Program-made: the position numbers and the translations under genes | The notes under the pieces: generated by a model | Told to the model about the DNA's origin: nothing | Database searches by the model: none | What the model saw: the letters and a program-made list of their open reading frames with translations, nothing else | In this document: piece after piece, positions 18,344 through 24,019 of the stretch | How the letters are laid out: each line of letters opens with the position of its first letter | How positions within the stretch are numbered: position 1 is the stretch's first letter | NCBI RefSeq assembly: GCF_026339875.1 | Contig: NZ_JAPEPZ010000001.1 | Coordinates: 3,596,001-3,660,000 of the forward strand | Source: Streptomyces sp. NBC_01571 | GTDB lineage: Bacteria > Actinomycetota > Actinomycetes > Streptomycetales > Streptomycetaceae | Length of the DNA stretch: 64,000 bases | Direction: 5' to 3'

Positions 18344-18931
18344 TCACGCGCGGGTCTTGGCCAACAGCTCCACGATCTCGGCGGTCGTGCCGGTCTCGCC
18401 GAGGCGGGGGAAGATCCGCTCGACGCTGTTGCGGTGGGTCTCGCCGTCCAGGTCGGTCATGGCGTCGGTGGCCAGGGTCACGTGGTAGCCGTGCTCGTGG
18501 GCGGCGCGGGCGCTGGACTCGACGCCGATGCTGGTGGCGATGCCGGTCAGCACGATCTGGGTGATCCCGCGGCGGCGCAGCTGCAGGTCGAGGTCGGTGC
18601 CGTAGAAGGCGCCCCAGTTCCGCTTGGTGACGGTGATGTCCTCGGGGTGTCCGGCCAGTTCGTCGACGATGACGTCCCAGCCCTCCGGGAAGCTGCGGGC
18701 GCGGTTCGGCCCTTCGTTGCGGCCGGGTACGGCGTCCGCTCCGTCGGCGGCGGCGGTGACCCGTACGAGGACGACCGGGAGGCCCTGCTCGCGGAAGGCG
18801 TCGGCGAGCAGCACCGACCGCTCCACGACCTCGGCGGCGGTGTGAGGGGCGAGGCCCGGGTTCCCGACGATGCCGTGCTGCAGGTCGATGACGACGAGGG
18901 CGGTGTGCGGGTCGAGCGTGGTGACTGCCAT
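18344..18931 (-). CDS. Isochorismatase-fold (cysteine hydrolase) protein lacking the usual Cys
   Basis: 195 residues from ATG 18931 with GAAAGG upstream. ALVVIDLQHGIVGNPGLAPH holds the catalytic Asp and TVTKRNWGAFYGTDLDLQLR the Lys. The third element reads VLTGIATSIGVESSARAAHE: where typical members have Cys, this protein has Gly (ATSIGVES). Some YcaC/isochorismatase relatives share this change, so the enzyme may not use a thiol nucleophile. The MarR regulator gene lies upstream on the same strand, separated by 420 bases that contain a nine-copy 19-bp repeat. Control by that MarR protein is plausible but not shown. Confidence 0.82.
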   Translation of the reverse strand: MAVTTLDPHTALVVIDLQHGIVGNPGLAPHTAAEVVERSVLLADAFREQGLPVVLVRVTAAADGADAVPGRNEGPNRARSFPEGWDVIVDELAGHPEDITVTKRNWGAFYGTDLDLQLRRRGITQIVLTGIATSIGVESSARAAHEHGYHVTLATDAMTDLDGETHRNSVERIFPRLGETGTTAEIVELLAKTRA

Positions 18932-19048
18932 GGTCAGGCCTTTCGGAGGGGTGTGCCGGTGCGTGTACGGAGGGATCGGTCCGGGAGGGGCGCCGCCGGG
19001 AGCGGTACGGCTCCGTCGGGCAGGAAGGAGGGGAACCGGCCGGCACGG

Positions 19049-19219
19049 ACCGCCGGTGTCGGCGCGGACCGCCGGTGTCGGCGCGGACCGCCGGTGTCGG
19101 CGCGGACCGCCGGTGTCGGCGCGGACCGCCGGTGTCGGCGCGGACCGCCGGTGTCGGCGCGGACCGCCGGTGTCGGCGCGGACCGCCGGTGTCGGCGCGG
19201 ACCGCCGGTGTCGGCGCGG
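19049..19219. repeat. Nine perfect tandem copies of a 19-bp unit
   Basis: Copies start at 19049, 19068, 19087, 19106, 19125, 19144, 19163, 19182 and 19201. The unit is ACCGCCGGTGTCGGCGCGG and contains the hairpin CGCCG-GTGT-CGGCG. The array then breaks to TCCGCG. It sits between the MarR gene and the isochorismatase gene. Its length (171) is a multiple of three, so a minus-strand frame (18934-19308) stays open through it as three 19-residue periods, but that frame has no other sign of being a gene. The remaining flanks of the 18932-19351 gap show nothing else. Confidence 0.95.
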
Positions 19220-19351
19220 TCCGCGAAGAAGGCGGCGTCGGTGAAGGAGGCGGCGCCGTCCGCGTAGGCGGCGTCGGCGGGGGCGACCATGACGCCGGGC
19301 GGCGGCACTGGGGGCCGGGAATCCGCCGGGACCGTGTGCGGGGGGCGGGTA

Positions 19352-19801
19352 TCACGGGCGGGTGAGCCGGTCCAGTACGGCCATCGCCTCGATGACGCTC
19401 TGCCGTTCGGCCTCCGTGCAGCGGTCCTGGAGGGCCTTGGCCAGCCATTCCCCGCGGGCCTGCCGGGTGCCCTCGACGCGTTCGCGGCCCGCGTCGGTCA
19501 GCGTGACGAGCTGTCGGCGGCCGTCCCCCGGGTCCGGGTTGCGGGCGATCAGCCCCTGCTGGTCGAGCACGGCGAGGGTGGCGGCCATGGACTGCGGCCG
19601 GACGCCCTCGGTGGCGGCCAGCGCGCTCGCCGTGGCGGCACCGCTCTTGCTCACCAGAGTGAGTGCGGAGACCTGTGAGGGGGTGAGGTCCTGCCGCTCG
19701 GAGACCTCCCGGATCCGCCGCCGCAGCCGGTTGAACGCCACCCGCAGATCCTGCGCCGCGCGAGCGGCGGACTCGGAGATGCCCTCGGCGCTGTCGTCCA
19801 T
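19352..19801 (-). CDS. MarR-family transcriptional regulator
   Basis: 149 residues. The winged-helix core is LTPSQVSALTLVSKSGAATA (helix-turn-helix start), ASALAATEGVRPQSMAATLA (recognition helix), VLDQQGLIARNPDPGDGRR (wing, with the D-x-R signature) and QLVTLTDAGRERVEG. The N-terminal ARAAQDLRVAFNRLRRRIRE and the C-terminal helices form the dimer interface. Just 19 bases upstream of its start lies a 54-bp perfect palindrome made of four 12-bp sites, a likely autoregulatory operator. The target of regulation may include the isochorismatase gene downstream. Confidence 0.9.
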   Translation of the reverse strand: MDDSAEGISESAARAAQDLRVAFNRLRRRIREVSERQDLTPSQVSALTLVSKSGAATASALAATEGVRPQSMAATLAVLDQQGLIARNPDPGDGRRQLVTLTDAGRERVEGTRQARGEWLAKALQDRCTEAERQSVIEAMAVLDRLTRP

Positions 19802-19820
19802 GCCGCCACACTAAATCCAT

Positions 19821-19874
19821 CAGTCAAGACTGTCCAGTTTGAACTGGCCAGTTCAAACTGGACAGTCTTGACTG
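19821..19874. promoter_or_regulatory. 54-bp perfect palindrome: four-site operator upstream of the MarR gene
   Basis: Two 27-base arms are exact reverse complements with no spacer. Within them are four 12-mers at a strict 14-base period: CAGTCAAGACTG (19821-19832), CAGTTTGAACTG (19835-19846), CAGTTCAAACTG (19849-19860) and CAGTCTTGACTG (19863-19874). Each is itself a CAGT-N4-ACTG palindrome. Position and symmetry fit cooperative binding by MarR-type dimers. Confidence 0.85.
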
Positions 19875-20085
19875 GTCAACTGCGCTGTGCGCTTCCGTCG
19901 GCCGGAGAGGGCGCGAGGGCGCATCGAGCGTCGGCCCGCCTTGGGTGACGCCAGCACTCCGCGCCGCTCGGCCAGCAGCCGAGCACGGGCCGGGCCGGGC
20001 CTGCTGAAGCGCCCGGTCACAACCGTTCGTGTGAACTCCCGGAAGGAACTCGCACCCCAAAATCGAACAGGCGTACCATTGCCGC

Positions 20086-20430
20086 GTGGCTGCGACCTAT
20101 GACTTCCCGAGTGACCTCCTGGCAGGCCAGGAGGAGTTGCACCAGGTCCGGGCGGAGCTCCTGGCCCTGCTCAAGCGGCTCCCCTGGTCGGTGGAACCCC
20201 TGGACGGCTTCAGCGACGACAGGGGCTGGCGCCAGGTGGAACGCCCCGCGTCCCCCGGCTGGACCGAGGACGAACAGGCCGAGGTGGAGAAGCTCAGGCA
20301 GCGTGAGCGCGAGCTCGCCGTGTTCGTGACCTGCCACCGCTTCTGGTCGGAGGTCGCGCCCCCGGAGACGGTCGACGCCCGCGCGAGGCTGAAGCACGCC
20401 CACGGGGCGCCGGCGGCGAACCCGTCTTAG
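20086..20430 (+). CDS. Hypothetical protein
   Basis: 114 residues from GTG 20086, starting MAATYDFPSDLLAGQEELHQ. Charged, mostly helical sequence with RAELLALLKRLPWSVEPLDGF, GWRQVERPASPGWTEDEQAEV and RQRERELAVFVTCHRFWSEV; one Cys and several Trp. The regular charge pattern and codon bias support a real soluble gene. It is divergent from the MarR gene across the 54-bp palindrome (212 bases upstream), so the same operator could affect it. Family not recognised. Confidence 0.65.
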   Translation: MAATYDFPSDLLAGQEELHQVRAELLALLKRLPWSVEPLDGFSDDRGWRQVERPASPGWTEDEQAEVEKLRQRERELAVFVTCHRFWSEVAPPETVDARARLKHAHGAPAANPS

Positions 20431-20534
20431 CCACCGTGGCCGTCGTAGCCACCTCGGCTGTCGCGGCTGCCGTGACCGTCGTAGCCGCCGTAGCCGCCGT
20501 AGCCGCCGTGACCGCCGTGACCGCCGTGACCGGC
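20431..20534. repeat. 9-bp tandem repeats (CCGTAGCCG / CCGTGACCG)
   Basis: A degenerate nonamer array directly follows the stop of the gene at 20086-20430. On the minus strand one frame reads YAGHGGHGGHGGYGGYGGYD and ends in a stop near 20431, but it has no start codon (a stop precedes it at about 20571). The remaining 20535-20764 looks like promoter for the following gene. Confidence 0.7.
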
Positions 20535-22367: not shown

Positions 22368-22736
22368 TCACTGGTCGGTCTCATCCCGCCACGACCCCCC
22401 GATGACTTGCCCTCTCTTGCCGTCCTCGCCTCTCCTTCCGTTATGGCCCCACCTGCCGCGATGACCGTCCTCCCCGTCCCGCCCCGGTCTGCCCGTCGGG
22501 CCGGTGGGGCCGGCCGGCCCCGAGGGACCCGAGGGGCCGGGCGACCCCGAGGGGCCGCGCATGATGCCGTTCCCCTGGAGGTCGATGCGTCGCCCTCGGA
22601 GTTCGTCGATCTGCTGTTGGTGGGCGACGAGCACAGCCGTCTGCGCGACGACCGCGACGGTCAGCACCGCGCTGAGCACAAGGCGGCGCCGGGGGCCGCG
22701 CCACTCCTCGTTTACGCTTCTCACGTTATCCCTCAC
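22368..22736 (-). CDS. Membrane-anchored collagen-like protein (copy 1)
   Basis: 122 residues from GTG 22736. Residues 1-18 are charged and cytoplasmic, followed by one membrane helix (RLVLSAVLTVAVVAQTAVLV). A short stalk (AHQQQIDELRGRRIDLQGNG) then leads to about 14 Gly-X-Y triplets, beginning RGPSGSPGPSGPSGPAGPTG and continuing RPGRDGEDGHRGRWGHNGRR. The triplets with Pro and charged residues predict a collagen triple helix outside the membrane, with the stalk as trimerisation segment. A paralogue lies upstream at 23035-23400 with the same head, helix and promoter. Function unknown; bacterial collagen-like proteins act as surface stalks or adhesins. Confidence 0.82.
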   Translation of the reverse strand: MRDNVRSVNEEWRGPRRRLVLSAVLTVAVVAQTAVLVAHQQQIDELRGRRIDLQGNGIMRGPSGSPGPSGPSGPAGPTGPTGRPGRDGEDGHRGRWGHNGRRGEDGKRGQVIGGSWRDETDQ

Positions 22737-23034: not shown

Positions 23035-23400
23035 TCAAGGGCTTGGCGATGAATCGCTCGGCTCCGGCGGGACGACAGCATCCTTGCCGTCCGTCCCGTC
23101 CTTCCCGTCATGCCCGTCCCGCCCGTCCTGCCCGTCCTGGCCGTCCGTCCCGTCCTTGCCCGGCGGGCCGACGGCGCCGTCCGCACCGGGAGGGCCGGAC
23201 GGGCCGGACGGCCCCGGGGGGCCGGGCTCGAGGTGCTCCTGGAGGTCGATGGGCTGTGTCTGCAGACTGTCGAGTTGCATCTGCTGGGCGACGAGTGCAG
23301 CCGACTGCGCCACCAGCGCGACCGTCAGCACCGCGCCGAGCACAAAAGGGCGCCGCGGGGTACGCAGCGCTTCGATCACGCTTCTCACATCGTTCCTCAC
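23035..23400 (-). CDS. Membrane-anchored collagen-like protein (copy 2)
   Basis: 121 residues from GTG 23400; the longer frame to 23964 overruns the conserved promoter block and is not used. Head and helix (MRNDVRSVIEALRTPRRPFV, LGAVLTVALVAQSAALVAQQ) match copy 1, followed by MQLDSLQTQPIDLQEHLEPG and about 15 Gly-X-Y triplets. The first are Pro-rich (PPGPSGPSGPPGADGAVGPP); the later ones are Asp/Lys-rich (GKDGTDGQDGQDGRDGHDGK), as in the charged triplets that stabilise bacterial collagens. A Pro/Ser tail ends the protein. It arose with copy 1 by duplication; the triplet region has diverged more than the membrane anchor. About 300 bases without a clear gene separate the copies. Confidence 0.82.
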   Translation of the reverse strand: MRNDVRSVIEALRTPRRPFVLGAVLTVALVAQSAALVAQQMQLDSLQTQPIDLQEHLEPGPPGPSGPSGPPGADGAVGPPGKDGTDGQDGQDGRDGHDGKDGTDGKDAVVPPEPSDSSPSP

Positions 23401-23440
23401 GTTGTGTGACGGCGAAAGTGTAAGGGACGAGGCCTCGGGG
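23401..23440 (-). promoter_or_regulatory. Promoter block of collagen-like gene 2
   Basis: Same arrangement as copy 1: CGAGGCCTCG at 23428-23437, TTACACTTTCG and GTCACACA before the GTG start. Conservation between copies outside the coding region argues that this is the functional control element. The rest of 23441-23791 shows no clear gene. Confidence 0.65.
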
Positions 23441-23791
23441 GAAGGCGGAGCGCGTCGAGTGTCTTCCCCAAGGGTGTCGGTTTGGCGCTGATCGACGGGG
23501 TCGCTCCACATCGCTGCTGCGCTGCGACGTCCACGGCCGCCGGCCGGCAGTTCCTGGACGGGCCTCCGACGGCCCAGCTCGGTCGGTAGCCGAGACCTGG
23601 TTTCACATCGGAGTGCCCCGAGGAGCTTCCCTCCGCCTCGCACGAAGCCTGGTCTCCCAGCACCACCTCGCCTTGCGAGACCTGGACGGAGGACTGAAGC
23701 TGAACGTGAGGCATGCCTACCGATCACATGGACCGAACGCAGACGGCCGCGGGGCTCGGCCACCCCGGCCCCTGCAGGGAGCCGGGTTCCC

Positions 23792-24019
23792 ATGAGGCTT
23801 GTCGTCGATCTCAACCGGTGCCAGGGGTTCGCGCAGTGCGTCTTCCTCGCTCCGGACGTCCTCGCCCTGCACGGCGAAGAGGCGCTGCTGTTCTCCCCTC
23901 GCTTCGACGAGGTCCAACGTGACCGGGTGGAGAAGGCCGCTGCCGCCTGCCCGGTCCAGGCCATCCTCGTCGACTACTCCGATGAGCCGACGAAGCGGGT
24001 GGAGCCCCATGTCGGCTGA
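23792..24019 (+). CDS. Small 3Fe-4S-type ferredoxin
   Basis: 75 residues: MRLVVDLNRCQGFAQCVFLA, then VEKAAAACPVQAILVDY. Three Cys in the pattern C-x5-C ... C-P match the single-cluster ferredoxins that pass electrons to Streptomyces cytochromes P450. The fourth cluster position is not Cys, as expected for a 3Fe-4S protein. Its last codons overlap the start of the reductase gene by 11 bases, and a P450 gene follows, so it is the first gene of a three-gene electron-transfer operon. Confidence 0.9.
   Translation: MRLVVDLNRCQGFAQCVFLAPDVLALHGEEALLFSPRFDEVQRDRVEKAAAACPVQAILVDYSDEPTKRVEPHVG

Follow-up and report, generated by a model that had tools for sequence, protein, structure and literature searches.

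In front of a MarR-family regulator gene of Streptomyces sp. NBC_01571 lies a stretch of DNA that is at once strictly periodic and perfectly palindromic, and this raises the question of what such an arrangement is for. Within the 64,000 nucleotides analyzed here (the window), four 12-mers of the form CAGT-N4-ACTG follow one another at a 14-bp period, and together they form a 54-bp perfect palindrome at 19821–19874, exactly as a preliminary description of the sequence had stated. The distance given there also holds, with 19 nt separating the array from the ATG of the MarR gene (19801, minus strand). Read in the orientation of the gene, the distal unit 1 (19863–19874, CAGTCTTGACTG on the plus strand) is followed by unit 2 (19849–19860, CAGTTCAAACTG on the plus strand), unit 3 (19835–19846, CAGTTTGAACTG on the plus strand), and the gene-proximal unit 4 (19821–19832, CAGTCAAGACTG on the plus strand), with no strand being assigned to the array or its units. 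The two arms of the palindrome, 19821–19847 and 19848–19874, are each 27 nt long, 100% complementary, and without a spacer.

The count of 12-mers alone is not rare, as the four found in 64 kb, against 0.58 expected, were reached in 3 of 100 shuffles. When folded as single-stranded DNA, the 81 nt from 19810 to 19890 gave −29.9 kcal/mol, compared with −9.2 ± 2.2 for shuffled sequences (z −9.4). The non-random feature of the array is the order of its units, visible in this fold score and in the period that recurs before homologous genes, and not the number of 12-mers.

The presumed owner of the array is a 149-aa winged-helix regulator of the MarR family (19352–19801, minus strand), identified through Pfam and 798 homologues, those of the nearest strains being 98 to 99% identical to it. 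Two MarR domains scored above threshold, PF12802 with 42.2 bits (cut-off 27) and PF01047 with 39.0 bits (cut-off 24.6). The best of five structure models (pLDDT 74.3, pTM 0.55) had the MarR fold, with its helices, helix-turn-helix, beta wing, and terminal helices; the other four scored lower, with pLDDT from 59.9 to 46.6. All four of the best PDB matches to the model were chains of Rv0880, a MarR protein (4yif). Rv0880 of Mycobacterium tuberculosis (NF052438; PDB 4yif) is both the nearest named family and the nearest solved structure, at 36 to 41% identity. The protein from the window nevertheless falls below the cut-off of the Rv0880 equivalog NF052438, with 95.9 bits against 220, as do the homologues from Mycobacterium at loci L107 and L113 (81.0 and 83.5 bits). 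We found no study of this actinobacterial MarR subfamily in the open-access literature. The preliminary description was thus right to place an ordered array before a genuine MarR gene (PF12802/PF01047), and the layout appears suited to several dimers.

Conservation of the lattice and its tie to the regulator

We compared the regions upstream of homologous genes at 110 loci, which represent 97 distinct upstream regions. Thirty loci, that of the window included, came from a search of 295 Streptomyces genomes, of which 75 matched at 1e-30, and a further 80 came from named actinobacterial genomes, 335 of which encode a relative, with the best 80 taken. A lattice was scored where at least two CAG-N6-CTG units, with at most one mismatch per unit, stood at an exact period of 14 bp. 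At least two in-register units were present in 94 of the 97 distinct regions (106 of the 110 loci), including the window's own, compared with 1.1 of 97 in dinucleotide shuffles (maximum 4 in 30 rounds) and 2 of 97 in the coding stretch behind the start. Seventy of the 97 regions had at least three units, and neither the shuffles nor the coding stretch had any. Two units at periods of 12, 13, 15, 16, 17, 20, or 21 bp occurred in 0 to 2 of the 97 regions, and three units at none of these periods. Pairs of CAG-N6-CTG were also seen at a 19-bp period in 17 of 97 regions and at an 18-bp period in 8 of 97, again never as three units.

Loss of the periodic pattern in close orthologues had been named beforehand as a result that would speak against a regulatory array; the array is instead kept in 94 of 97 regions. 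An isolated palindrome peculiar to the window is ruled out by this conservation of the lattice across homologous upstream regions. Among the 94 distinct arrays, 24 had two units, 63 had three, 5 had four, and one each had five and six, where the two-unit class includes arrays with a degenerate third unit (for example, those at L028/L064, L056, and L106). The longest arrays (L068 and L095) were seen in Streptomyces capoamus, with five units, and in S. shenzhenensis DSM 42034, with six units, one of them mismatched. Arrays were found in 12 genera, namely Streptomyces, Kitasatospora, Streptacidiphilus, Peterkaempfera, Actinomadura, Micromonospora, Actinoplanes, Paractinoplanes, Actinocatenispora, Saccharopolyspora, Kribbella, and Mycobacterium. 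A regular array was missing from 3 of the 97 distinct regions: the one shared by L023 and L070, L024, where the array is irregular, and L076. In a profile of 93 regions, which excludes L022, L023, L024, L070, and L076, the CAG and CTG cores were near-invariant in the two proximal units and weaker in the distal ones, a conservation that is partly built in, as the arrays had been found by their cores. The inner bases vary, with a preference for CAGTY-NN-RACTG.

The array also follows the regulator between genomes. Among 49 Streptomyces genomes chosen for having the regulator (the better-scoring part of the 75), 41 carried a three-unit array with at most one mismatch; a reversed control matched 16 times, in 8 of the 49. 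By comparison, 2 of 50 genomes taken from the 220 without a regulator match at 1e-30 carried such an array, against 1 of 50 for the reversed control. When read against the places of genes, 45 of the 50 three-unit windows in the 49 genomes stood directly before this MarR gene or a paralogue. A wide regulon of three-unit arrays was not seen in these genomes, with only 5 of the 50 windows lying elsewhere (two in G187, two in G182 C7, and one in G011 C9). The exact four-unit pattern was found in 3 of 392 Streptomyces genomes, with the reversed control matching in 2: the present genome, G169, where it precedes the orthologue, and G372, where it is a simple tandem repeat. Because two of these three exact matches precede this MarR gene, we take specificity to come from position and not from the pattern.

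Searches within the present genome bear out this distinction between position and pattern. A two-unit CAGT pattern with up to three mismatches was not specific, as it matched 14 times in the forward form and 32 times as a reversed control. The exact two-unit CAG-N6-CTG pattern gave five windows at three places, and since the reversed control also gave five, it proves nothing by itself. The three places are the array, a site immediately in front of a MarR paralogue of 52% identity, and one elsewhere; the array of the paralogue begins about 20 to 35 bp before the extrapolated start. That array (L115, G000:C1:719661-720161) has TA linkers in place of GA, reading CTGTACAG, and TA linkers were likewise seen before paralogues in other genomes. 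Two further candidates in this genome, L004 (6431041, two mismatches) and L116 (C4:86406), had no MarR homologue within 1.5 kb on either side and were taken as chance.

Two broader searches were also made. Of 61 genomes searched at the DNA level, three matched: the present one, G024 in the upstream region of the orthologue, and G016 by a short match elsewhere. A combined array and promoter pattern (at most one mismatch) matched in 38 of 80 chosen genomes (64 from a later sampling of Streptomyces and 16 whose regulator scored lower), with many of the matches being chance-like and in coding DNA.

Predicted promoter, operator model, and probable target genes

Conservation of the gene-proximal linker points to a promoter beneath the array. 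The predicted −35 element, TGGACA (19831–19836, minus strand), spans the linker that joins units 3 and 4 and is one base off the textbook −35. The corresponding linker, the one nearest the gene, reads GA in 62 of 63 three-unit arrays, and in the aligned upstream regions it has G in 87 and A in 85 of 93. The same alignment places the predicted −10 element, TAGTGT (19808–19813, minus strand), 17 bp from the −35, where a conserved TAnnnT is found (first T in 87, A in 85, and last T in 85 of 93), with the ATG following within about 7 nt. TAGTGT matches the consensus at three of six positions; a consensus promoter scanner, which needs four of six per hexamer, called no promoter here, and no terminator was found either. 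The promoter is predicted to be of a leaderless type, in which case the array would cover the −35 and lie upstream of the mRNA.

We consider it probable that the stretch is the autoregulatory operator array of the MarR gene, built for several dimers and lying over the gene's own leaderless-type promoter. It shares with MarR-type autoregulatory operators a two-fold site that lies over the predicted promoter of its own gene and is kept in orthologues. It departs from the usual form of one or two discrete sites in that 2 to 6 units form one contiguous series with a 14-bp step. The lattice, its 2 to 6 units, the overlap with −35- and −10-like elements, the tie to the regulator, and the presence before isochorismatase-type genes are established by sequence comparison.

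In the mechanism we propose, head-to-tail half-sites with CAG/CTG cores would form a fixed 14-bp lattice that adjacent MarR dimers occupy, with a rotation of about 120 degrees from one to the next. Bound dimers would mask the −35 and shut out RNA polymerase, a small-molecule ligand would free the dimers and so switch on marR and the hydrolase operon, and the number of units may set the steepness or strength of repression. An MFS exporter would be part of the induced operon, judging from the one inserted gene examined. By simple arithmetic at 10.5 bp per turn, 14 bp correspond to 1.33 helical turns and three units to 42 bp, or four turns. As given in the available portion of the structural report, a solved streptomycete MarR dimer was crystallized on 22-bp DNA with its recognition helices in consecutive major grooves (PMC3737563). 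Neighbors at 14 bp must therefore share DNA on different faces, and it is as a part of the proposed model that we infer simultaneous occupancy of adjacent 14-bp sites.

The register of the dimers may be read in two ways, as interior half-sites serve two dyads, CAGTY-NN-RACTG within a unit and RACTG-NN-CAGTY across a linker. The unit dyad of 12 bp is favored as the dimer site by the layout of the SCO3205 operator, TTnAAnnnTCAA. Two observations favor the linker dyad, namely that the terminal half-sites are weak and that spacing can be irregular within units. In the 93-region profile, the outermost half-sites were weaker outside the CAG/CTG core. Irregular spacing occurred eight times inside units (six N5, one N4, and one N8) and once at most in an array linker (L008), with six other odd linkers lying outside arrays; this split of eight against at most one is within chance if indels fall by length (6 bp against 2 bp).

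Downstream of the MarR gene, the probable target is an isochorismatase-fold hydrolase gene (18344–18931, minus strand), with scores of 153 bits for PF00857 and 203.8 bits for NF008517 (cut-off 195). Of 80 loci, 66 have a homologue of the hydrolase downstream and in the same orientation, 25 of them with a gap of 1.3 to 1.6 kb before it. The one such gap that was checked (L111) holds a gene for an efflux-like MFS transporter. Four genomes (G190, G118, G200, and G277) have an array directly before the isochorismatase-type gene itself. At these loci (L163, L184, L154, and L156, respectively), a metallophosphoesterase-type gene lies divergently on the other side of the array, and the stretch retrieved contains no MarR homologue; all four genomes carry a 57–59% identical MarR gene elsewhere. 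Pfam confirmed the isochorismatase of L163, L184, and L156 and the phosphoesterase of L163, the remainder being assigned by sequence similarity; L154 and L156 were found with an array-promoter pattern one base longer before the −10 (mainly 18-bp spacings). As these arrays precede the hydrolase gene while the MarR gene lies elsewhere, it is probable that the array can work in trans and is part of how the isochorismatase-type hydrolase operon is controlled.

On the other side of the array, a divergent ORF of 114 aa (20086–20430, plus strand), with no match in Pfam or NCBIfam, is a possible second target. Counting the present one, 16 distinct loci retain this gene next to the array. A different divergent gene, encoding a metallophosphoesterase, occupies this place in 32 of 80 loci, and the arrays are kept there too, except at L070. 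Control of the gene at 20086 had been raised as a possibility in the preliminary description; it looks secondary, since it is the predicted marR promoter that the array overlaps, and the divergent GTG lies 211 bp beyond the end of the array.

The surroundings contain further repeats. A 19-bp tandem repeat of 9.7 copies with 98% matches lies between the MarR and isochorismatase-type genes (19041–19224), and 18-bp and 9-bp repeats are found where the divergent 114-aa gene ends and immediately beyond it (20422–20532). Two adjacent ORFs on the minus strand (22368–22736 and 23035–23964) have collagen-like Gly-X-Y stretches and a similar layout.

Symmetry of the whole array and competing explanations

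The perfect palindrome, exact as it is in the window, did not stand as a conserved feature. Perfection over 54 bp was unique to this genome: a spacer-free palindrome above 20 bp was found in 1 of 122 distinct regions, with the next one being 20 bp, and a conserved 54-bp palindrome is ruled out on these grounds. When a loop was allowed, the next longest stem among the 122 regions was 17 bp (L109), followed by 14 bp. A weaker symmetry was nonetheless detected among 90 three-unit arrays. Over their inner six bases, the two outer units showed a reverse complementarity of 3.20 of 6, compared with 2.61 when shuffled among species, and 18 of the 90 pairs were complementary at 5 or 6 positions against 6.3 under the null, a count reached in none of 2000 shuffles. 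Units 1 and 2, units 2 and 3, and every direct-repeat comparison were at the null level. When shuffling was restricted to within 7, 11, 15, 19, 29, or 39 protein clades, the p values were 0.003, 0.008, 0.056, 0.024, 0.064, and 0.081 for the excess and 0.002, 0.010, 0.061, 0.106, 0.226, and 0.168 for the count of 5 or 6. Two-unit arrays as a group showed no excess (2.88 against 2.80, n = 24, p 0.41).

One explanation of this symmetry is that template switching copies one quasi-palindromic unit onto its inverted partner, leaving a functionless mutational by-product. We give this an even chance of being correct, and it accompanies the operator explanation without excluding it. In its favor, only units 1 and 3 show the signal, with a middle unit the size of a hairpin loop between them, and the CAG/CTG cores lend any pair of units a baseline complementarity. 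Template switching between inverted repeats makes and repairs stems, according to the accessible part of one account (PMC8794818). Against it, clade-specific preferences of the protein could yield the same pattern. As either process would explain the symmetry, we do not take it as proof of a hairpin function. The 54-bp perfection in this genome is probably a by-product of template switching, or inverted copying, inside a functional array and would be dispensable for its function.

A wider reading would join these elements into a modular operator on a 14-bp lattice, where dimers step by 120 degrees and wrap the promoter, the number of units tunes repression, and template switching regenerates the palindromes; as a whole, we regard this as possible but not likely. 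It would further cast the 54-bp palindrome as a freshly made perfect copy, and the three units that predominate (63 of 94) as four helical turns, a proposal that we offer just as tentatively.

That a regulator other than this MarR protein, such as a global repressor, binds the array seems very improbable to us. Three-unit arrays track the MarR gene and its paralogue, with 41 of 49 genomes against 2 of 50, and a global regulator should have many sites, whereas we found one to three windows per matching genome.

We think it very improbable that the pairing of the arms is itself under selection, with a cruciform or hairpin controlling transcription or replication locally. The very strong fold in this genome (z −9.4) would agree with such a role, as would the complementarity of outer but not neighboring units in three-unit arrays and a two-unit array of Kitasatospora (L109) whose 17-bp stem has a two-base loop. 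However, perfect spacer-free pairing above 20 bp is confined to one region, linkers are complementary in 2 of 90 arrays, two-unit arrays lack any excess, and the signal fades within narrower clades. The array also lies upstream of the predicted transcription start, and it should therefore be absent from the marR mRNA.

Least credible, to the point of being hardly worth entertaining, is a plain sequence repeat without function: some matches elsewhere resemble tandem repeats (G372 and G182 C7) and the window holds other tandem repeats, but as direct repeats the units resemble each other no more than shuffled ones do, and a fixed lattice with kept cores and with inner bases and linkers that vary across genera is a trace of selection and not of copying.

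Relation to known MarR operators

Autoregulatory operators of the MarR family, such as marO of Escherichia coli and the SlyA boxes, have a two-fold 12-bp core before their own gene that overlaps the promoter. The usual MarR operator consists of one or two separate sites, whereas the array described here, compared with marO and the SlyA boxes, has 2 to 6 such cores on a strict 14-bp lattice.

The operator of SCO3205 from Streptomyces coelicolor, a protein with a crystal structure, offers a close comparison. It has a 12-bp two-fold consensus, TTnAAnnnTCAA, and two operators lie between its own gene and a divergent gene, as reported in the available part of the work (PMC3737563). SCO3205 is likewise a streptomycete MarR protein, and the layout of its consensus resembles CAGT-N4-ACTG. 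It differs in its half-site and in having two discrete sites, and the available part of that paper describes no periodic array (PMC3737563). Long footprints are also on record for other MarR proteins, with 52 bp for CrtR, 40 bp for BldR, and 20 to 100 bp for PecS, as recounted in the CrtR paper (PMC6739363). These operators, too, are longer than one dimer would need and suggest several dimers. For CrtR, no inverted repeats were found there, and for all three, the available part of that paper describes no regular lattice of variable unit number (PMC6739363).

We found no description in the open-access literature of a strict 14-bp lattice that has 2 to 6 units and precedes a single kind of regulator gene. 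The novelty lies in this lattice, as MarR-type autoregulatory operators themselves are already known. The arrays provide a natural series of two, three, four, five, and six equally spaced sites before the same kind of regulator, which makes the role of site number and helical phase in MarR cooperativity directly testable. They also tie an actinobacterial MarR subfamily to an isochorismatase-type hydrolase operon. Finally, the symmetry of the arrays suggests that mutation, in the form of template switching, can shape the symmetry of an operator.
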